From assembly GCA_018894435.1 (NCBI GenBank), contig JAHIPI010000087.1, forward strand, positions 1-37,859: a DNA stretch of 37,859 nt, read 5' to 3'. The notes under the pieces are model-generated. The model saw nothing but the letters and a program-made list of their open reading frames with translations, was not told the origin of the DNA and did no database searches. Numbering within the stretch: position 1 is the first letter of the stretch; every line of letters starts with the position of its first letter. Made by a program: the position numbers and the translations under genes. The DNA comes from Candidatus Omnitrophota bacterium. Lineage in GTDB: Bacteria > Omnitrophota > Gorgyraeia > JAHIPI01. Positions 9,262-34,661 of this stretch are shown piece by piece.

Positions 9262-10176
9262 CTATTTTCCTTTAAAATTGGCCGCGTGAGCCTCTATATT
9301 TATCCGCAAATTGTCCGTCAGGGATAATAGGGCATCTACCACTCTTCCGTCAAACTGCTTATCTTTTTCCATATTGAAGATATCTAATATTTTTTCTCGG
9401 TTTAGAGCATTCCGGTAGGGCCTGTCCGTCGTCATCGCGTCATAGGCATCCGCCACGGCCAATATTCGGGCCTGGAGAGGGATATCCACACCCTTCTTAT
9501 GCAAGTAGCCGGTTCCATCCATGTGTTCGTGGTGGTAATAGATATATGGAATGATATTTTTTAATAGCTTAATGGGGCTTAGGATGCTGGCCCCGATAAG
9601 CGGATGCTGACGGATATGATCATACTCCTCGCGTGTAAGGGGTTCTTTTTTGCGCAGAATATCTTCGCGTATACCGAATTTTCCTATGTCATGAAGTATG
9701 CCCGCTGTCCTTATAAGGGTCTGTTCATTTTTCGGGAACCTCATTTTTTTTGCGATACGTACTGCTATTTCGGCCACGCGTGAAGAATGGCCGTATGTAT
9801 AAGGGTCCCGCGATTCCATTGCCAAGGCAAGAGTGGCTATGGTTCCGAGGTATATAGCGTTTATTTTTTCCGTTAAAGTCCCGATTATATAACCGGAAAT
9901 TATTAAAAAACATCCCCAGAGCAGCACTTTGTTCGTGATAAATTCCACATAATTATCAAAACTCATAAACGCTATTATGCTTACAAAAGCGATAGAGATT
10001 ACTGCGGTAATAACGCCGCCCTTGGCATCATAGGCATATCCGGCAAGAAGCGTTGGCAGGAAGAAAAAATTTATAAATACTTCTTTATCTTCGACAAAGT
10101 AAAATATTAAAAGGCTTGCCAGGCTGATTACGAAGAGTAATATTAGCTTATAATTTGGTTTATTCACTAAGTCCAT
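9262..10176 (-). CDS. Membrane-bound HD-GYP c-di-GMP phosphodiesterase
   Basis: About four transmembrane helices fill residues 10-102, followed by an HD-GYP domain. The metal ligands appear intact: E121 and H130 (MESRDPYTYGHSSRV), H162-D163 (LHDIGKFGI), HP at 191-192, H215-H216 and D243 (VADAYDAMTTDRPYR). The signature loop reads HHEHMDGTGYLH, so the GYP proline is leucine (L225). HD-GYP enzymes hydrolyse c-di-GMP to pGpG or GMP; here the sensor is membrane-embedded. The start at 10176 is only about 10 bases from a -10 element and lacks a clear Shine-Dalgarno, so the mRNA may be nearly leaderless. The short YqeY-like gene follows. Confidence 0.9.
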   Translation of the reverse strand: MDLVNKPNYKLILLFVISLASLLIFYFVEDKEVFINFFFLPTLLAGYAYDAKGGVITAVISIAFVSIIAFMSFDNYVEFITNKVLLWGCFLIISGYIIGTLTEKINAIYLGTIATLALAMESRDPYTYGHSSRVAEIAVRIAKKMRFPKNEQTLIRTAGILHDIGKFGIREDILRKKEPLTREEYDHIRQHPLIGASILSPIKLLKNIIPYIYYHHEHMDGTGYLHKKGVDIPLQARILAVADAYDAMTTDRPYRNALNREKILDIFNMEKDKQFDGRVVDALLSLTDNLRINIEAHAANFKGK

Positions 10177-13412: not shown

Positions 13413-15680
13413 TTATGCCGCATCGTTTCGTATTATAAGCGCGCTGACCAGATTCAATATTCCAACAGCGATTAGGCATTGCAATATGCCCAAAATGGGC
13501 ACAAAAATAGCCGCTAAGAGAAGAGCGCCCGCTACCCCTCCAGCCAAATCCGCGCCGTATAAAACGCCGGAGGTCTTGCCGACATCCGAACCTCCCTTCG
13601 TAATTATCTTACTTGCCAGCGCAAACTGTGCCCCTCCCAAAATGCCCGTTATAAATACAAGCGCGGGAAAGATAAAGAGTGCTCCCGCATTTGCCCAATA
13701 AAAATGCGTATAATTTGACAAGGTTTTAAAAATGGGTATAAGGGAAAATGAAAATAAGCTTAGCGCTATTTTGCTTTTCTTAAGGCTCAGGGAAGAGTTC
13801 TTTATATAATCCATTCTTTTTGATGTTATAAAACTCCCTGCGCCGAGACCCGCCATGAATAATGTCACAATAAGGCCTAATTTATAATACAGATAGCCGT
13901 ACAGGGCTTGAAAGGCCAGCATAATGCTCAGCTCTATTGCCATTTCCGCAAAGCCGGTTGTGACCACGGCAATTATGATGGGCCGATGAGCAGTCTTTTC
14001 TTTTTTTATTCCGAGTAATATTACAACAAAATAGGCAAGAAAGATGAAATACCAAAGGATTTTTTCATTTAATACCTTTAGGAGCGCATTAAAAGTAGGC
14101 TGAAACGATGTTGCCCAGAGGGTCATATCGTAATAATAGGATACCGGTTTAAAGTCTGTGTTTATGCGTAGTTTTTTTGCCCCTCGTATGGTCCTTTCTG
14201 CGTATTCGACCCTTTCGGGTATAAGGCGATTCTCAAGATAGTAGTCACGCACAAAGGTCGTTTTTATCTTGCGCGCATCGAGAGCCTCTTGCAGTGATTT
14301 TGCATCTACGTTTGCGGCACTGCCTCGAAATGCGATGAATTTCATGTTTTCTCCGGGGATTATCTTTACTTCAAACCCGGCGACAACTAATGTTCTATAT
14401 ATAGTACCTAGATATTCCGCGAGTTCCGTGCCGATATAGTTTTCGCCCCCCTCGCAGCCTAATGATAATATGCCGTTTTCCTTGAGTATATTTTTTGCTT
14501 CTGTAAAGAATTCTTTTGTATAGAACCTGTTTACCTGAATAGTATGAGGGGCGGGGACGGCTAATATTATAATGTCATATTTTTTATGCGTGGTTTTTAT
14601 GTAAGAACGGCCGTCACCCCAATGTATTTTTAGAATAGGATTTGAAAGCTCTTCCTGCAACCTCTTGCCTATGGCATTCTTCGCAACTTTTATTAAAACC
14701 GGGTCAAGCTCTACATAATCCACTAGATCCAGATCATATTTGTATAGTTCGCCAAGCGTGCCGTTTAACCCTCCGCCTACCAAAAGAATATTTCGTGGAT
14801 TGGGATGAATCGCCAGGGGATAATGAACGGTTTCTTCAGCTCCACGTGCATCCGGAGAGGTAAAGGTAAATCCGCCGCTTACATAAAAACTGAACTGACC
14901 CCTTTCGGATACAGCCGTAACGTTGCCATAAATAGAATTTTCGGTCTTTATGAGATTAAAAGGCCGCCACATTATAAGCCTGGATAATCTTTCTATTCTC
15001 CTTGGGACTTCAAGCGGCCATGATGCCATATTTAGCGCTAGGAGAAAAACTGCTATATATCTTAAAATAAACACCTTTTTATTTGTCGCATACCGCAAAA
15101 GTAATATCGCAGTTATCAGGATGAAGAAGCTTAAGGCAAAAGCAATATTGAAAGGCGTTAATATTTTTATAAGTATAAGACTCACGAGTGTCCCGCCTAT
15201 TACTGTTCCGGCCGCCTCAAAGAAATAGGCACTTACGGTACTCTTTGCCTTGTCGGAGTGAAATCGGGATATGATCTTTGCGCCTAATGGGAATAAAAAA
15301 CCATACGGCAGGCAGAATAAACTGAGTGCAGCCAGGGAGAGGTAAAATGCGGGGCCGAAACCTATGATTTCGCCGGGCATAAGGGCCATTATATGCTTCA
15401 TTGTTCTGGCTAAAAAAAGCGTAGCCGGAATTGCCAATGCGAGCAATATCAGCATTGCGGCAAAGACTTCTAGTTTATTAATTATTTTATCGGACACTTT
15501 TCCCGAGAGAAAACTTCCGGCTGAAACAAGTAAAAGCCAGCTGGCCAGTATTATTCCTATAGACAGTTCATTACCATAAAATGCGGATAATAGTTCGCGC
15601 AAAAGTATTATTTGCGCGCTTATACTCGCGACCCCCAAGGCTATAAAAGAAGCGGCAATTATTCCGAAAAATCTTTTCAT
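13413..15680 (-). CDS. Multi-TM spermidine-synthase-like (SpeE-fold) membrane protein
   Basis: Three parts are visible: about six transmembrane helices (residues 1-215), a soluble class I methyltransferase/SpeE-like domain (about 225-500) and about six more helices (540-750). The nucleotide-binding motif is NILLVGGGLNGTLGELYKY with VDYVELDP as the acidic ribose-binding residue. The usual SpeE catalytic motif DSTDP is replaced by AVPAP (ILAVPAPHT, 373-380) and GGGDGG by GGGLNG, so classical aminopropyl transfer is doubtful. The soluble domain's side of the membrane is unknown. It lies one base after the radical SAM gene and is last in its operon. Confidence 0.82.
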   Translation of the reverse strand: MKRFFGIIAASFIALGVASISAQIILLRELLSAFYGNELSIGIILASWLLLVSAGSFLSGKVSDKIINKLEVFAAMLILLALAIPATLFLARTMKHIMALMPGEIIGFGPAFYLSLAALSLFCLPYGFLFPLGAKIISRFHSDKAKSTVSAYFFEAAGTVIGGTLVSLILIKILTPFNIAFALSFFILITAILLLRYATNKKVFILRYIAVFLLALNMASWPLEVPRRIERLSRLIMWRPFNLIKTENSIYGNVTAVSERGQFSFYVSGGFTFTSPDARGAEETVHYPLAIHPNPRNILLVGGGLNGTLGELYKYDLDLVDYVELDPVLIKVAKNAIGKRLQEELSNPILKIHWGDGRSYIKTTHKKYDIIILAVPAPHTIQVNRFYTKEFFTEAKNILKENGILSLGCEGGENYIGTELAEYLGTIYRTLVVAGFEVKIIPGENMKFIAFRGSAANVDAKSLQEALDARKIKTTFVRDYYLENRLIPERVEYAERTIRGAKKLRINTDFKPVSYYYDMTLWATSFQPTFNALLKVLNEKILWYFIFLAYFVVILLGIKKEKTAHRPIIIAVVTTGFAEMAIELSIMLAFQALYGYLYYKLGLIVTLFMAGLGAGSFITSKRMDYIKNSSLSLKKSKIALSLFSFSLIPIFKTLSNYTHFYWANAGALFIFPALVFITGILGGAQFALASKIITKGGSDVGKTSGVLYGADLAGGVAGALLLAAIFVPILGILQCLIAVGILNLVSALIIRNDAA

Positions 15681-18619: not shown

Positions 18620-19150
18620 CTATATCTTTAGACTTTCACGGTAGATATGGCGCGCGTTATTAAAAAACATTATACACTCTTCTCTTTTATAATCCGGATA
18701 TGTTGTTTCCAGGGGCCCAAAACTTCCCCCTTGAAATTTGAGAGTTACCTCCGCATAGATCCCATGCCCGAGATATATGCGATGTCCGTAATCCTTGGTG
18801 GTAAGTAGTATTAGTTTGCTTTCGGTTATGTAGCCCGGATCTATGTTTACGAGCCGCTTACCCGCCCTTGATAACACCTTTTCCGTCCTATTGGTTTCTA
18901 TCTTTAAATTATAAATATTTTCCGGACTGACAAGCCGCTTAATACCTATAAATTTTCTCTTTAATCCATCTCCGAGCTCTTCTTGGTAGTAGTCAGTGCT
19001 GCAAAAATCAAGTACGTCGCTTTCCGAGTCTACGGGCCCCCACTTCTTTACCGCAGTTCGGATGGCCGTCTTTAATACACCGGCATCGTTGAATATAAAC
19101 CCTATAATCAATTTTACTTTTTTATGCGGAGCGGACTTGCCCATATTCAC
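18620..19150 (-). CDS. DUF4416 protein
   Basis: The 176-residue product has the conserved DUF4416 elements: VKLIIGFIFNDAG near the start, LDFCSTDYYQEELGDGLKRK, NIDPGYITESKLILLTTKDY and GHRIYLGHGIYAEVTLKFQG with PLETTYPDYK. The family is widespread in anaerobes and its function is unknown. The start overlaps the upstream PilZ gene by 4 bases. It is followed after a 23-base gap by the hydrolase-like gene, so all belong to one transcript started at 19655-19683. Confidence 0.88.
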   Translation of the reverse strand: MNMGKSAPHKKVKLIIGFIFNDAGVLKTAIRTAVKKWGPVDSESDVLDFCSTDYYQEELGDGLKRKFIGIKRLVSPENIYNLKIETNRTEKVLSRAGKRLVNIDPGYITESKLILLTTKDYGHRIYLGHGIYAEVTLKFQGGSFGPLETTYPDYKREECIMFFNNARHIYRESLKI

Positions 19151-19626
19151 GTAGATATTTTTTCTATATATGAAACTAATCTGGCGCTGCCATCGGGCTC
19201 TATATTTACAAATTGCACCCCGGTCTCGAATATCCTTTTCCCGTCAACATCTCTCTCATCAAAAGCACCGCTCGTCCATACTACTTTTCCATCAGCGATA
19301 ATGGGACCCTTTTTATCGGGAATGCTAAATTCCAATAATAGAAGAGTCCCTTCGGTAAGTTTTTCGGTTACAACAAGCCGAACACCCTTTTGAGAGATAT
19401 CTTTTATAGCGCCGTTGAGTTTTAGGTGTAATTTTTTTTCGATACTATACCGGACGGCCAATTCAGTGTTTACGCGCATGGCCTTTCGCCTTTCTTTCCC
19501 GTCCCAGTACTCTCTGACTATGCCTTTGGGGACACCGGCTTTCCTCGACCCCATCTCCTCAATAAAGAGCGCCGCTAATGATAAAATAAGTACTATTATG
19601 ATTATAAGCTGTATTGATAAAAGCAT
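19147..19626 (-). CDS. Membrane-anchored PilZ-domain protein
   Basis: An N-terminal transmembrane helix (LLSIQLIIIIVLILSLAALF) is followed by a PilZ domain. ERRKAMRVNTELAVRY holds RxxxR (RKAMR) and GAIKDISQKGVRLVV holds DxSxxG. The remaining strands (LLLEFSIPDKKGPIIADGKV, TGVQFVNIEP) complete the barrel. Such a protein would read c-di-GMP at the membrane face. GGAGGCA precedes the ATG, and a strong promoter lies just upstream. It is the first gene of the run that includes DUF4416, the hydrolase-like, radical SAM and SpeE-like genes. Confidence 0.87.
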   Translation of the reverse strand: MLLSIQLIIIIVLILSLAALFIEEMGSRKAGVPKGIVREYWDGKERRKAMRVNTELAVRYSIEKKLHLKLNGAIKDISQKGVRLVVTEKLTEGTLLLLEFSIPDKKGPIIADGKVVWTSGAFDERDVDGKRIFETGVQFVNIEPDGSARLVSYIEKIST

Positions 19627-19735: not shown

Positions 19736-21280
19736 CTATTTCTTAAATATGCCAAGGAAGGCGGATCCTATATTAGAATCGAACTGCTTCCCTAGATTTT
19801 TTTCAATCTCCACCATGGCCTCATCTATTTTTAAGCCCTTTCTATACGGCCTTTTGCTTGTCATCGCGTCAAAGGCATCGGCAACAGCAAGTATTCGCGA
19901 AAGGACGGGGATTTCTTTGCCCTTTAATCTATCTGGGTAGCCTTTGCCGTCATATCGCTCATGATGATGGCGGATGACCGAAAAACATTTTTCAAGAAAT
20001 TTGACCGAGCGTACCATTTCTACGCCTTTTACCGGATGCGTTTCTACCTCTGCCATTTCTAAGGGTGTCAATGGGCCCGGTTTTTGAAGTATGGAATCGG
20101 GGATTGCTATTTTACCTATATCGTGCAGTTTTCCGGAATATGCGAGAACATCCAAAGCCCTTTTTCCTAGATTTAATTCTTTGGCTATTTTAAGAGCATA
20201 ATTTGTGACCCTTTCAGAATGGCCGGATGTATACGGATCTTTTGCTTCCACAGCATTTACCAGCGCAGCAATTGTGCTGTAATAACTTAATTGTATCTTT
20301 TTATGCAGCTTGGCGTTGTTTAATGCTATCGCGGCATGGATTGCGAAAGTTGAGATGAGATTTATCTCGGAGGCGGTGAATGATTTGACATCCCGGGAAT
20401 ATGCGGCAATAGTTCCCAGTATATTATTCTTGAAAGCTATGGGTACTACGAGTAGAGACCGTATCCCTTCTTTTATGCATTCCTGTAAATGCTTTACGCG
20501 ATTATCGCAAGAAATATCCGCTATGGCTATGGGCACACCGCTTTTTGCCGCTATTCCCGAGATGCCCTCACCTATCTTTAAGGATTCGGTATTTTCCACA
20601 AAAGTACCGCTTAATCCGGAAGCTGCCTCTAAGATGAGCTTGGATCGCGTTTCGTCGAAGACTCTTACTATGCATCCGGATACATTTAAAAAATTAGGTA
20701 CCGTATTAACGATAGTTTGCAATACTTCATTTATCTCAAGGCTTGAGACTAGCCGGTTGCCCAGCTCGAAAATAGTTCTTAGCTCTTCATCGGCCAACCT
20801 TAATTCATTCGCCCGCTCGTTTGCCAGGTTCTTCAGAATTTTGTTCATTTTTCTTGTGTTGGCGTTTAATCTACGGGTCTCAACTTCATTTTTTCTTTTT
20901 TCGGTAATGTCTATTACCAATTCAAGCACCTTATCTGCTTCGCCGAAAGGGTTGAGTATGGGTGAGGCAGCAATCCTGAAGTACCTCTTTTCGCCGTTCA
21001 AATAAACCGTTCGTAAATTGCTTATATGAGTCTTCTTATCGCGAAAAGATTTGATTACGGGGCAGCCGATGCATATATGGTCGCGTTTTTCAAAGGTCTC
21101 GTAGCATTTCTTACCTACAATTTCTTTGCATGGGGCAAACCATGATTCCTGTACCTTGTTTATCCATAAGATATCCATATCCTTGTTTAATACGCACAAA
21201 CCGGCGTTTAGAACATCTAACAATTCCGGGCTTGCCTTGTCTGGTAAATTGATTTGAGGTTGCGTATTTAACATTTGCAT
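19736..21280 (-). CDS. PAS-GAF-HD-GYP c-di-GMP phosphodiesterase
   Basis: Domain order is PAS (about 20-135), a short coiled linker, GAF (about 185-325) and HD-GYP (about 330-512). The HD-GYP motifs are complete: VEAKDPYTSGHSERV, LHDIGKIAIP, HPVKG, HHHERYDGKGYPD and LAVADAFDAMTSKRPYR, so hydrolysis of c-di-GMP is expected. The PAS domain has KKCYETF ... CIGCP cysteines, found in several PAS proteins and possibly redox- or metal-linked. The Shine-Dalgarno is weak (AGAATAAAA). A strong promoter and a candidate c-di-GMP-I riboswitch precede the gene, suggesting feedback by its own substrate. Confidence 0.92.
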   Translation of the reverse strand: MQMLNTQPQINLPDKASPELLDVLNAGLCVLNKDMDILWINKVQESWFAPCKEIVGKKCYETFEKRDHICIGCPVIKSFRDKKTHISNLRTVYLNGEKRYFRIAASPILNPFGEADKVLELVIDITEKRKNEVETRRLNANTRKMNKILKNLANERANELRLADEELRTIFELGNRLVSSLEINEVLQTIVNTVPNFLNVSGCIVRVFDETRSKLILEAASGLSGTFVENTESLKIGEGISGIAAKSGVPIAIADISCDNRVKHLQECIKEGIRSLLVVPIAFKNNILGTIAAYSRDVKSFTASEINLISTFAIHAAIALNNAKLHKKIQLSYYSTIAALVNAVEAKDPYTSGHSERVTNYALKIAKELNLGKRALDVLAYSGKLHDIGKIAIPDSILQKPGPLTPLEMAEVETHPVKGVEMVRSVKFLEKCFSVIRHHHERYDGKGYPDRLKGKEIPVLSRILAVADAFDAMTSKRPYRKGLKIDEAMVEIEKNLGKQFDSNIGSAFLGIFKK

Positions 21281-21313
21281 TTTTATTCTTATAACAGGTT
21301 AGGGAATATTAAA

Positions 21314-21425
21314 GCCGACCTACCAATATAAACTAAATATATAGGCAGCTCGGCCATCTTTGATCTTATCTTTGGTGCAAAGCCATGTGTCCCTTCAAAG
21401 ACTCCGAAGCTTTGCTAACAACTAT
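21314..21425 (-). promoter_or_regulatory. Candidate c-di-GMP-I (GEMM-I) riboswitch with expression platform
   Basis: The leader between the promoter and the HD-GYP gene folds as a GEMM-I-like aptamer (21341-21425). It has AUAG/CUAU and AGC/GCU pairing for the basal stem, the conserved AGCAAA, a CUUC/GAAG hairpin, GGGAC, a second hairpin CUUUG/CAAAG and the closing AUGGCCGAGCUGCC. The same GCUGCC pairs alternatively with GGUAGGUCGGC (21324-21314), a terminator-like stem followed by TTTAATATT. The GNRA tetraloop and the exact GCAAAGCC block are not matched, so the class call is moderate. Confidence 0.55.
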
Positions 21426-21470
21426 AATAAACTATTTACTATCTTAACTCTTATGTGGGGTAACACCTAA

Positions 21471-21499
21471 ACTATACCTTACAACATTGTCGCTGTCAA
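21471..21499 (-). promoter_or_regulatory. Sigma-70-type promoter for the HD-GYP riboswitch leader
   Basis: On the minus strand, a perfect -35 TTGACA (21499-21494), a 17-base spacer and -10 TATAGT (21476-21471), giving an untranslated leader of roughly 180 bases. Confidence 0.82.
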
Positions 21500-21521: not shown

Positions 21522-21935
21522 TTATTTTATTGCTTCGCCTTCCACCTCTTTTACTACAAGCGGATAGCGTACCTTCAAATCTCCGTTTAAAAGGACTTCC
21601 ACCGCGTATTCTCCGGCAGTGTCGAATTTTAAGTTATTAAAACGCGCTATAATTCTGTGTTTCGCCTTTAAGTCCTGGAGGGAAAAGGCAGTTTCCTTGT
21701 CCTCTGCGAGCAAGCGGCCGTCCTTCGCCACTATTCTGCTTCTCTGGCGGAAATTTCCTAGCCCGCTCGTCCAGCAGTTCATTATGAATAATGCGGGGTG
21801 TATGGCGGGAAATTTGCGCGCTCCTATTGTTTCAAAAAGTCCGATCAGTATAAACTTGCCATTATCTTCCCTGCGGACATCATCGCACAATACCGAAAAT
21901 AAGAGCGTCGGTATGATCGTTTCCTCATTTACCAT
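21522..21935 (-). CDS. DUF6941-like conserved hypothetical protein
   Basis: The 137-residue soluble protein starts MVNEETIIPTLLFSVLCDDV RREDNGKFILIGLFETIGAR. The CDDVR ... NGKxxLIGxF pattern resembles DUF6941; this identification is from memory and moderate. The rest is predicted beta-rich (RSRIVAKDGRLLAEDKETAF, GEYAVEVLLNGDLKVRYPLV). No catalytic motif is visible. GGAGA precedes the ATG. It lies 16 bases after the DAK2 gene, so it is the last gene of that run. Confidence 0.65.
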   Translation of the reverse strand: MVNEETIIPTLLFSVLCDDVRREDNGKFILIGLFETIGARKFPAIHPALFIMNCWTSGLGNFRQRSRIVAKDGRLLAEDKETAFSLQDLKAKHRIIARFNNLKFDTAGEYAVEVLLNGDLKVRYPLVVKEVEGEAIK

Positions 21936-22935: not shown

Positions 22936-23292
22936 TCAGTTTTGCGTTATTACTTTTTTGATATGCTTTAGGATCGTATTTTTAGCCTTTTCGGTGATAT
23001 CGTCGAAGAAGATGGCCGTCTCGTAGAACGTCTTATTCTGCGCGGCAGTGGGAACGGTCCGCACCACAGTACCGCTGCATTCCACTTTACTGTTTTTTCC
23101 GTCTGTATCCGGTATAAGGAGGGTTATCCTTACCTTAGACATAAGCGGCATGGGCTTGTCGGTGGTAAAATACGTGCCGGAAGCGCTTATGTTTTTCGTT
23201 TCTACTACCATACCGCTGTCGCCTTCTATTATTTTTATAGGCAATCTCTCTTCTATGCGCGGTGTTTGCCGTTTTTCGTTAGGTCTTTCCAT
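22936..23292 (-). CDS. PilZ-domain protein (c-di-GMP receptor)
   Basis: A 118-residue single-domain PilZ protein. NEKRQTPRIEERLPIKIIEG holds RxxxR (RQTPR) and VVETKNISASGTYF holds NxSxxG. The strands KVRITLLIPDTDGKNSKVEC and YETAIFFDDITEKAKNTILK complete the fold. It is separated from the DAK2 gene by 18 bases and from the DUF362 gene upstream by 64 bases with no clear promoter, so it is probably part of the 22-25 kb run. No effector partner is visible. Confidence 0.87.
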   Translation of the reverse strand: MERPNEKRQTPRIEERLPIKIIEGDSGMVVETKNISASGTYFTTDKPMPLMSKVRITLLIPDTDGKNSKVECSGTVVRTVPTAAQNKTFYETAIFFDDITEKAKNTILKHIKKVITQN

Positions 23293-32081: not shown

Positions 32082-33566
32082 TTACCTGTTCTTTTTCAGT
32101 AAGCCGACAATCGATTTCTCTCCGATTATTTTTAAAAACGCCTTTACCGCTCTGGGGTCAAACTGCGTCCCCGAGCTTTTCTTTATTTCGGATATCGCCT
32201 TTTCAATATCCACCTTCTGCCGGTAGGGGCGTTTTGTAATCATCGCATTAAATGCCCCCGCAAGTGCCATTATTCTTGATCCAAGCGGTATATTATCGCC
32301 TTTTAGCCCATCAGGATATCCTGAGCCGTCATAATTTTCGTGATGGTGCAATATTAGCGGGATGACCGGTTTTAAAAAACTCAAGTGTTTTATTATTTTC
32401 ACGCTTTTTTTAGGGTGCTTTTTTATAATATCATATTCCTTGCCCGTTAATTTCGCGCTCTTAGTAAGTATTTTATCGGAGAATCCTATCTGCCCGGCGT
32501 CATGCAGCAGGGCGGCATAATGCAGGTTTCGTAATTCGTCCGAACCGAGCTGCATCTCTTTTCCCATGGCGAGGATTATCTTTATGAAAGACTCCTTGGG
32601 CCTGTAACTTCCGCCCGTACGCGTTGCCAGAGTAGTAGCCAGCGATTTTATGCTTCCGAGCGTTATATCTTTCTGCTCTTTATACAGCTTGGCATTTTTA
32701 ACAGCTATTACGGCCTGCTCGGAAAGAGTTGCCAGTATTTCCTTGTCAAATATATTGAAGGGCGCATTATCTACTCGGCACATTACGCATATCGCTCCCA
32801 TGACATCCTCGTCGGTTAAAGGCGCGCAGAGCATCTTTTTTGTCATTACAAGTTTCCCCTTGCGCAGAACATCCCGCTTTATAATTCTTGCATAATGGCC
32901 GCGGTATAAACCAGATCCTTTTTTCCCGTTATTACCCGCTGAAATATGTACAATAGTGGGTTTCTTATTGCCGTTTGCGAGCAATATGCAGCATCGCTCC
33001 GCTTTCAGTATTTGCAGCGAAAGGCGCGCTATCTTAGGCAGCAGTTCTTCTAAGTTTAATGTTGAACTTAAGATGCGGTGTATGGTATGGACAGTGGACA
33101 GGGCAATGGCCCTTGGTCTTACTGCTTCGTAAAGCTTTGCAAGCTCGACTTCCTTCTGGAATTCTCTTATAAGCCCCTCCATAAAATTAGAGAATAGCGC
33201 TATTATGTCATCTCTTATCTTGTTTTGGGAGTGGCATATTCCGATATATCCATAAATCTTGTCGCCTTGGATCACGGGTACGCATATACCGTTTTTGGAA
33301 TTTGCGCAGCCGAAACGCACAGGTTTTTTAGATCTCCTCGTCTTATTCAGCAGATTGCGGAACCTTCTCAGGCAGGCATCAGTTACGGCCTCACCTTTCC
33401 GGCAAAAGTACGGTTTGACCTTATCTACACCGGTTATGGCTGCTTTATCGGTCTCCTCCGCCATCCACCATACCGAATCTTTTAAAAGCGCTTTAAGTAC
33501 AGACGCCTCCTTCTTAAAGCCTTCGCTTTTTACTAGCTGTGAAAGTAAGTCTTTAGTATTTTCCAT
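32082..33566 (-). CDS. PocR/GAF sensor protein with degenerate HD-GYP domain
   Basis: Residues about 30-140 resemble a PocR-type sensory domain (CLRRFRNLL, FGCANSKNGICVPVIQGDKI, YGYIGICHS). Residues about 155-295 are GAF and 305-490 an HD-GYP domain. The signature HHHENYDGSGYPDGLKG is intact, but several metal positions are altered. The E and H of the usual EAKDPYTSGHS are lost (ATRTGGSYRPKES), HDIGK is HDAGQ (355-359), and VADAFDAM is LAGAFNAM (D to G436 and N440). It probably binds rather than hydrolyses c-di-GMP, or is inactive. It directly follows pilT, so motility control is plausible. Confidence 0.9.
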   Translation of the reverse strand: MENTKDLLSQLVKSEGFKKEASVLKALLKDSVWWMAEETDKAAITGVDKVKPYFCRKGEAVTDACLRRFRNLLNKTRRSKKPVRFGCANSKNGICVPVIQGDKIYGYIGICHSQNKIRDDIIALFSNFMEGLIREFQKEVELAKLYEAVRPRAIALSTVHTIHRILSSTLNLEELLPKIARLSLQILKAERCCILLANGNKKPTIVHISAGNNGKKGSGLYRGHYARIIKRDVLRKGKLVMTKKMLCAPLTDEDVMGAICVMCRVDNAPFNIFDKEILATLSEQAVIAVKNAKLYKEQKDITLGSIKSLATTLATRTGGSYRPKESFIKIILAMGKEMQLGSDELRNLHYAALLHDAGQIGFSDKILTKSAKLTGKEYDIIKKHPKKSVKIIKHLSFLKPVIPLILHHHENYDGSGYPDGLKGDNIPLGSRIMALAGAFNAMITKRPYRQKVDIEKAISEIKKSSGTQFDPRAVKAFLKIIGEKSIVGLLKKNR

Positions 33567-34661
33567 CTATCCTAATATCCCCTTATCTTCGTCCAGATAT
33601 ATTCCTTTTAGGTTTATCTTTAGCGCTTCCGGATTACTAGATTTTGAAAGCGCCTCCTCTTTTGTCACTAAATTCTTTTTGTATAAAGTTGCGAGTGCCA
33701 TGTTGAATGTGCACATCCCTTCTTCACCGTGTTGGAGCAATTTGATTATCTCCTTTACCCTGTTTTCGCGGATCAATTTTGACGCAATAGGCGTAATCGC
33801 AAGTATTTCTACGGCCGGTATCAGGCCTACTTCTTCCCCTCCGAGCTTTTTAAGCAGGCGCTGGCATGTTATCGCTTTTAAGTTGTTGGCTAATTGCATC
33901 CTTATCTGTTCTCTTTCGTGATGGGGGAAAAAGTCTAGTATTCTCGTGATGGCCTGCATAGTATCTTCCGCATGGAACGAGCTCAATACCACGTGGCCCG
34001 ATTCCGCTGCCGATATGGACGTCATAACGCTTTCGGCATCTCTCATCTCGCCTATTACTATGATATCGGGGTCCTGGCGTAGTATGTGCCTGAGCGCCGC
34101 GTGAAACGATTCCGTATCTACGCCTATTTCGCGTTGATTGATTACGGATTTTTTATCCCCATGTATATATTCGATGGGATTTTCGAGCGTCATTACATGC
34201 TTGTTCTTATTGCTATTTATGTAATCTATAATGCTTGCAAGCGTTGTACTTTTTCCTGTAGAGCTTGCTCCTGTTATGAGAATTATACCACGTTCAAACA
34301 TGGCGATCTTTTCAAAAATCGGCGGCAAATTCAACTCTGCAAATGTCGGTATTTTGTCTTTTATCCGCCGCATGACTATGCCGGATTCGCCTCGCTGCCT
34401 GAATATATTTACCCGGAACCGCCCGATGTTATCCGCTAAGTACGCATAGTCGATCTCGTTTTTTTGTTCAAACTCATGGCGCTGGGTTTCGGTAGTGATT
34501 TGCGAAATGATATTTTCCATGTCCTCTTTGGTAAATTTTCCGCACCTATCCTCAGGGATAAGCCGTTTGTTTATCCGATATATAGGCCCGCTGCCCACTT
34601 TAAGATGTATGTCCGAGGCATTCTTTTCGATCATAGCCTTTAATAAATCAGATATGTTCAT
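33567..34661 (-). CDS. pilT: Twitching motility / pilus retraction ATPase PilT
   Basis: A hexameric secretion-type ATPase: Walker A is GASSTGKST (131-139), and the Asp-box/Walker B region is QDPDIIVIGEMRDAESVMTS. The FRVNIFRQRGESGIVMRRI and HVVLSSFHAEDTMQAITRIL segments match. The N-terminus NISDLLKAMIEKNASDIHLK is the PilT family form. PilT depolymerises type IV pili for twitching. The 364 residues are typical. It directly precedes the degenerate HD-GYP gene on the transcript, and the pilin-like gene lies at the left edge of the window. PilB and PilC are outside. Confidence 0.95.
   Translation of the reverse strand: MNISDLLKAMIEKNASDIHLKVGSGPIYRINKRLIPEDRCGKFTKEDMENIISQITTETQRHEFEQKNEIDYAYLADNIGRFRVNIFRQRGESGIVMRRIKDKIPTFAELNLPPIFEKIAMFERGIILITGASSTGKSTTLASIIDYINSNKNKHVMTLENPIEYIHGDKKSVINQREIGVDTESFHAALRHILRQDPDIIVIGEMRDAESVMTSISAAESGHVVLSSFHAEDTMQAITRILDFFPHHEREQIRMQLANNLKAITCQRLLKKLGGEEVGLIPAVEILAITPIASKLIRENRVKEIIKLLQHGEEGMCTFNMALATLYKKNLVTKEEALSKSSNPEALKINLKGIYLDEDKGILG

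Follow-up and report, generated by a model that had tools for sequence, protein, structure and literature searches.

The window analysed here, a stretch of 37,859 nucleotides from a Candidatus Omnitrophota genome, carries on its minus strand a leader of about 190 bases that very probably descends from a GEMM-I riboswitch, with a promoter at its start and a gene for a PAS-GAF-HD-GYP phosphodiesterase after it. The reading that we prefer for its present state, which we consider probable, is that of a diverged and partly decayed GEMM-I (GGC-like) riboswitch with ligand binding lost or weakened. The homology is argued for by the aptamer and the terminator in the leader of the orthologous gene, by the score of two conserved blocks relative to shuffled sequences, and by the pairing of the aptamer 3' strand with a downstream arm. 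It is noted that the leader is built like a c-di-GMP-I riboswitch and is not to be filed as a member of that family, because the tested defining features fail. The preliminary description had proposed a c-di-GMP-I riboswitch controlling the phosphodiesterase gene. The GEMM-I lead and the target gene hold up, aided by the orthologue's leader, while a working c-di-GMP-I riboswitch does not, the Rfam threshold being unmet and several ligand-pocket and tertiary features being absent.

Results

Gene, promoter and synteny

The features are collected in Table 1. The gene had been described as intact and is so, with PAS_4, GAF and HD_5 domains and with both catalytic motifs present, HD..GK (HD at 386) and HHExxDGxGYP in the form HHERYDGKGYP (439). 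The strong promoter said to stand ahead of the leader is also there, at a level of match for which 1.1 sites per region are expected by chance. In the sister genus G001, the HD-GYP gene has an orthologue by computation, with 52% protein identity and the shared gene order PilZ-DUF6941-leader-HD-GYP, and an almost identical promoter, TTGACA-17-TATACT, lies at the same place in the orthologous leader. The DUF6941 neighbour was also sought in G002, where only a weak match (28% identity) was found, and in G003, where there was none, so that no third leader was obtained. Around another 28 HD-GYP homologues from the class, no GEMM-I was found at E up to 1 in the fetched flanks. When the HD-GYP protein was compared with the genome contigs, one match was returned, to an unrelated clostridial HD-GYP.

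It is also observed that genes related to c-di-GMP are plentiful in the window (9262-10176, 19147-19626, 22936-23292, 32082-33566 and 33567-34661), which encodes two more HD-GYP/NosR-type model matches, two PilZ proteins and a PilT ATPase adjoining one HD-GYP gene.

Table 1. Positions of the leader elements and flanking genes in the window
Feature	Position	Strand	Basis
PAS-GAF-HD-GYP phosphodiesterase gene	19736..21280	minus	Pfam PAS_4, GAF_2, HD_5 (HD_5 E 5.8e-45)
Terminator-like hairpin GGCCGAGCUGCCUAUAUA...UAUAUUGGUAGGUCGGCU, then weak U tract UUUAAUAUU	21305..21355	minus	duplex energy, folding
Closing GCC strand with C92 equivalent (21345 or 21344)	21344..21346	minus	R1, block scoring
P3 helix AGCU.U.CGG.A.GUCUUUGA / UCAAAGAU.GG.CCG.AGCU, 31-base loop insert 21394-21364	21347..21411	minus	R1, folding
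Competing hairpin GCAAAGCU...GGCUUUGC burying the A47 element	21377..21415	minus	minimum-energy fold with the terminator-like hairpin in place
GCAAAG element with A47 equivalent (first A, 21413)	21410..21415	minus	R1 alignment
Eroded P2 arm: AU-rich hairpin (21442-21420) on a stem of GUUAA with UUAGC (21418-21414)	21414..21448	minus	minimum-energy fold of 21464-21341
Promoter TTGACA-17-TATAGT	21471..21499	minus	11/12 consensus matches
DUF6941 gene (the leader is the gap between it and the HD-GYP gene)	21935..21522	minus	

The orthologous leader

The comparison of leaders rests on the one orthologous leader of G001 (L004:1235-1347). Its best family is RF03167 (c-di-GMP-I-GGC), with 33.3 bits (E 2.5e-6 across 4227 families), below the cut-off of 59, and it scores 28.4 bits with R1, a clade model that we built from 32 GEMM-I aptamers, 30 of relatives and two of the window's own genome. 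It retains the GCAA tetraloop, G20, A47, C92 and the C44-G83 pair, the Vc2 numbering on these sequences being our own mapping via the Rfam consensus. An extra pair of small hairpins is inserted in or beside P2. Its terminator, a CCGAGC...GCUCGG hairpin followed by U8, reuses the aptamer 3' strand; the U tract in the window's leader is weaker than this U8. A nucleotide search for related leaders in the 99 relatives gave short chance matches only and no similarity to the orthologous leader.

Family tests and chance resemblance

In a search of the whole window against Rfam, no family reached its gathering score, RF03167 (cut-off 59 bits) included. Under permissive settings RF01051 aligns with the leader over its full length, but with 14.2 bits it stays below the gathering score of 35; the E-value of 2.2 over 4227 families corresponds to about 5e-4 for RF01051 alone on 291 bases. 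The Rfam matches of the leader to PK-PYVV, mir-4680 and alpha_tmRNA at E up to 10 are at chance level.

With filters off, R1 ranks the site 21450..21341 first in the window, at 17.6 bits (E 0.016 in 37.9 kb), the next best scoring 10.9. R1 scores of 16-18 bits also arise by chance within coding genes of these genomes, and in the whole-genome R1 search the site was not among the scored candidates; the R1 score alone is not convincing genome-wide. Weak R1 matches at L091, L093 and L098 (G000, G001) lie within coding genes and are ascribed to chance. By two-block consensus scoring the leader obtains 31.9, the second-best stretch of the window 24.7, and 5000 dinucleotide shuffles a mean of 0.8 (sd 4.5) and a maximum of 20.9, none of them reaching the leader's score. 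Moreover, the odds of riboswitch ancestry are raised by the location, because the leader of the syntenic orthologue is a near-complete GEMM-I.

GEMM-I aptamers are present in 87 of the 99 relatives, often several per genome, and the window's own genome has two full-scoring ones (68.1 and 66.4 bits). Some further observations on the clade may be recorded here. G090 and G025 hold about 20 copies per genome, and closely spaced copies on the same strand (G012:C45:15052-15151 with 15315-15414; G020:C27:38641-38715 with 38823-38899) are possible tandem riboswitches. Other GEMM-I leaders of the family (L002:1501-1700 and L048:1501-1700) have a separate terminator CCUAUUCUUUU...AAAGAAUAGG ending in a U run; the terminator loop of L002 contains GGCAGC, able to pair with the aptamer GUUGCC, which suggests the opposite (OFF) logic.

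Register and aptamer parts kept and lost

The motifs AGCAAA, GGGAC and AUGGCCGAGCUGCC, named in the preliminary description, are all present on the minus strand. Their supposed right order and spacing, with AGCAAA first and GGGAC as the end of P2, is rejected, because R1 and the folding both make GCAAAGC the second element; the RF01051 alignment in that register has broken pairs at its 14.2 bits. In the corrected register given by computation, the role of second conserved element falls to AGCAAAGC, the "AGCAAA" being part of the GCAAAGC that carries A47. In the R1 alignment, GCAAAGCUUCGG (21415-21404) replaces the second conserved block GCAAAGCCACGG, GGCCGAGCUGCC (21355-21344) takes the place of AGCCGGGCUGCC, and GGGAC and ACAUGGC fall inside the P3 loop insert. 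R2, a model of P3 alone, settles on this register as well, with 10.7 bits (E 1.8), which is not significant window-wide.

In this register the P3 half is well kept. The A47 equivalent is present, the column being A in 32 of 32 clade aptamers, and both C columns of the closing GCC are invariant across the same 32. Of the ten core P3 pairs nine are standard, and in two of the nine, U43-A78 and A48-U72, both bases depart from the pair most often seen in the clade; the conserved bulges are present. The computation also shows which tertiary elements are missing. By folding, P2 has no GNRA tetraloop, as had been conceded beforehand, its loop being AU-rich, and the receptor for the tetraloop is absent from P3, which is continuous, as it also is in the orthologue. 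The C44 position reads A (UUAGCAAAG) while G83 is kept, so that the interhelical C44-G83 pair, called universal among GEMM riboswitches (PMC4744006), is lost, both bases being present in L004. At the G20 position, both the model register and the folding register place an A, while alignment of the leader by sequence to L004 would make it a G. Among the 32 sampled clade aptamers, an A at this position (AAUAGCAAAC) is seen in three, L036, L052 and L059 (aptamers at 1501 onward).

Competing folds

When the region is folded alone, it adopts the two-arm P2/P3 shape at -22.2 kcal/mol, the same as the R1 register without prior input. The capture of the aptamer 3' strand by a downstream arm, put forward in the preliminary description, is borne out: GCCGAGCUGCC pairs with GGUAGGUCGGC (21355..21313) in a duplex of -19.4 kcal/mol, with 0 of 2000 shuffles as good. 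In the orthologue the corresponding arm pairing has -15.9 kcal/mol, a value reached by 7 of 2000 shuffles, and the two leaders have 3' arms of different sequence. The minimum free energy of the window's leader is -40.1 kcal/mol. A simple growing-chain calculation gives pair 21406-21351 of P3 a probability of 0.93 at 21344, 0.82 at 21324 and 0.52 at 21318; by 21314 the value has fallen to about 0, and P3 is replaced by the terminator-like structure (-38 to -40 kcal/mol) together with the hairpin burying A47. The leader has by computation two competing folds, one aptamer-like and one terminator-like.

Discussion

We propose that the HD-GYP phosphodiesterase gene was once under the control of a transcriptional ON-type c-di-GMP-I riboswitch (GEMM-I, GGC-like), from which the leader descends. 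In this original layout, which would be best kept in the sister genus, the bound c-di-GMP would retain the 3' strand of P3 and P1 in the aptamer, and a strand so held could not form the 5' arm of the terminator; with the strand kept from the terminator, high c-di-GMP would therefore switch on its own breakdown. Such a switch, in which c-di-GMP presumably raises the expression of its own phosphodiesterase, would constitute a negative feedback. In the window's genome, what appears to persist is the half with P3 and A47, together with the bistable layout of aptamer and terminator, while the P1/P2 half appears to be eroded, and with this erosion ligand binding has most likely been lost or strongly weakened. 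Tight c-di-GMP binding by the leader is unlikely because the GNRA loop, the receptor, C44 and probably G20 are missing and the U tract is weak. The leader may today be at most a leaky attenuator.

Other explanations should be weighed against this one. It is quite improbable that the leader is an ordinary one, carrying a hairpin of the terminator or attenuator kind but descended from no riboswitch, and resembles GEMM-I by chance: although the Rfam score is sub-threshold, coding DNA yields R1 matches equally high, the R2 hit is weak and the nucleotide search finds no similarity to the orthologous leader, such a leader would have to coincide with a near-complete GEMM-I in the orthologue, outscore every shuffle in the block scoring and be ranked first in the window by the clade structural model. 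A strongly diverged c-di-GMP-I riboswitch that still functions, in which a rebuilt P2 together with P3, A47 and C92 is enough for c-di-GMP to keep the terminator from forming and turn the phosphodiesterase on, is rather unlikely. The loss of C44 and of the GNRA loop, the probable A at G20 and the weak U tract speak against it, as do the Cd1 aptamer mutants C81A and A24-26U, which show no binding (PMC9262584), and the Vc1 mutants, in which the G20-equivalent mutation reduced binding and the A47- and C92-equivalent mutations abolished it (PMC4744006). On the other side, the leader is still bistable and has both arms of the terminator, though in sequences unlike those of the orthologue, P3 pairs survive changes on both sides, the HD-GYP enzyme is intact and two PilZ genes are nearby.

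It is highly improbable that the pocket has been altered to sense a cyclic dinucleotide other than c-di-GMP, for instance 3',3'-cGAMP, with the leader controlling an HD-GYP enzyme that degrades that ligand. The A at the G20 position in the structural register, occurring also in a few clade aptamers, would fit, since a G20A GEMM-I binds 3',3'-cGAMP (PMC6274999), whereas the 5' side can be aligned in more than one register, neither C44 nor the tetraloop is there, and all other aptamers of the family have G20. A working GEMM-I variant of either specificity, c-di-GMP or cGAMP, that has neither the contact between GNRA loop and receptor nor the C44-G83 pair, has a rebuilt P2 and exerts direct feedback on the HD-GYP gene, is in our judgement distinctly unlikely. 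The diverged and partly decayed riboswitch remains our preferred reading.

The comparison with known systems is as follows. Like RF01051 (GEMM-I; Vc2, Cd1), the leader has a P3 with a 1-base 5' bulge and a 2-base 3' bulge, the GCAAAGC with A47 and the closing GCC with C92, and its site lies under a strong promoter; unlike RF01051, it falls short of the 35 bits, lacks the GNRA loop and receptor, has A for C44 and probably A for G20, and has an AU-rich P2. With RF03167 it shares the continuous P3 without the UAA receptor, and RF03167 is the family that best fits the orthologous leader; by contrast, there is no RF03167 report for the window, where RF01051 is the higher of the clan. In the cGAMP riboswitch of Geobacter pilM (GEMM-Ib, transcriptional ON), the aptamer 3' strand, including the C that pairs with the ligand, is the terminator 5' arm, and the two folds are mutually exclusive (PMC9262584). 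The same double use of the strand is seen in the window's leader, whose pocket, unlike the complete pilM aptamer with its known ligand, is incomplete and whose ligand is putative.

Note that reading motifs may give the correct family with the wrong register. Among 47 sampled genes downstream of GEMM-I elsewhere in the clade, inspection of the first 50 residues only gave no obvious HD-GYP. The pair of leaders points to direct c-di-GMP feedback on a phosphodiesterase gene in a GEMM-I-rich clade. With one leader near-complete and the other eroded in sister genera, the pair also amounts to a small natural experiment on the loss or remodelling of a riboswitch whose gene is retained.
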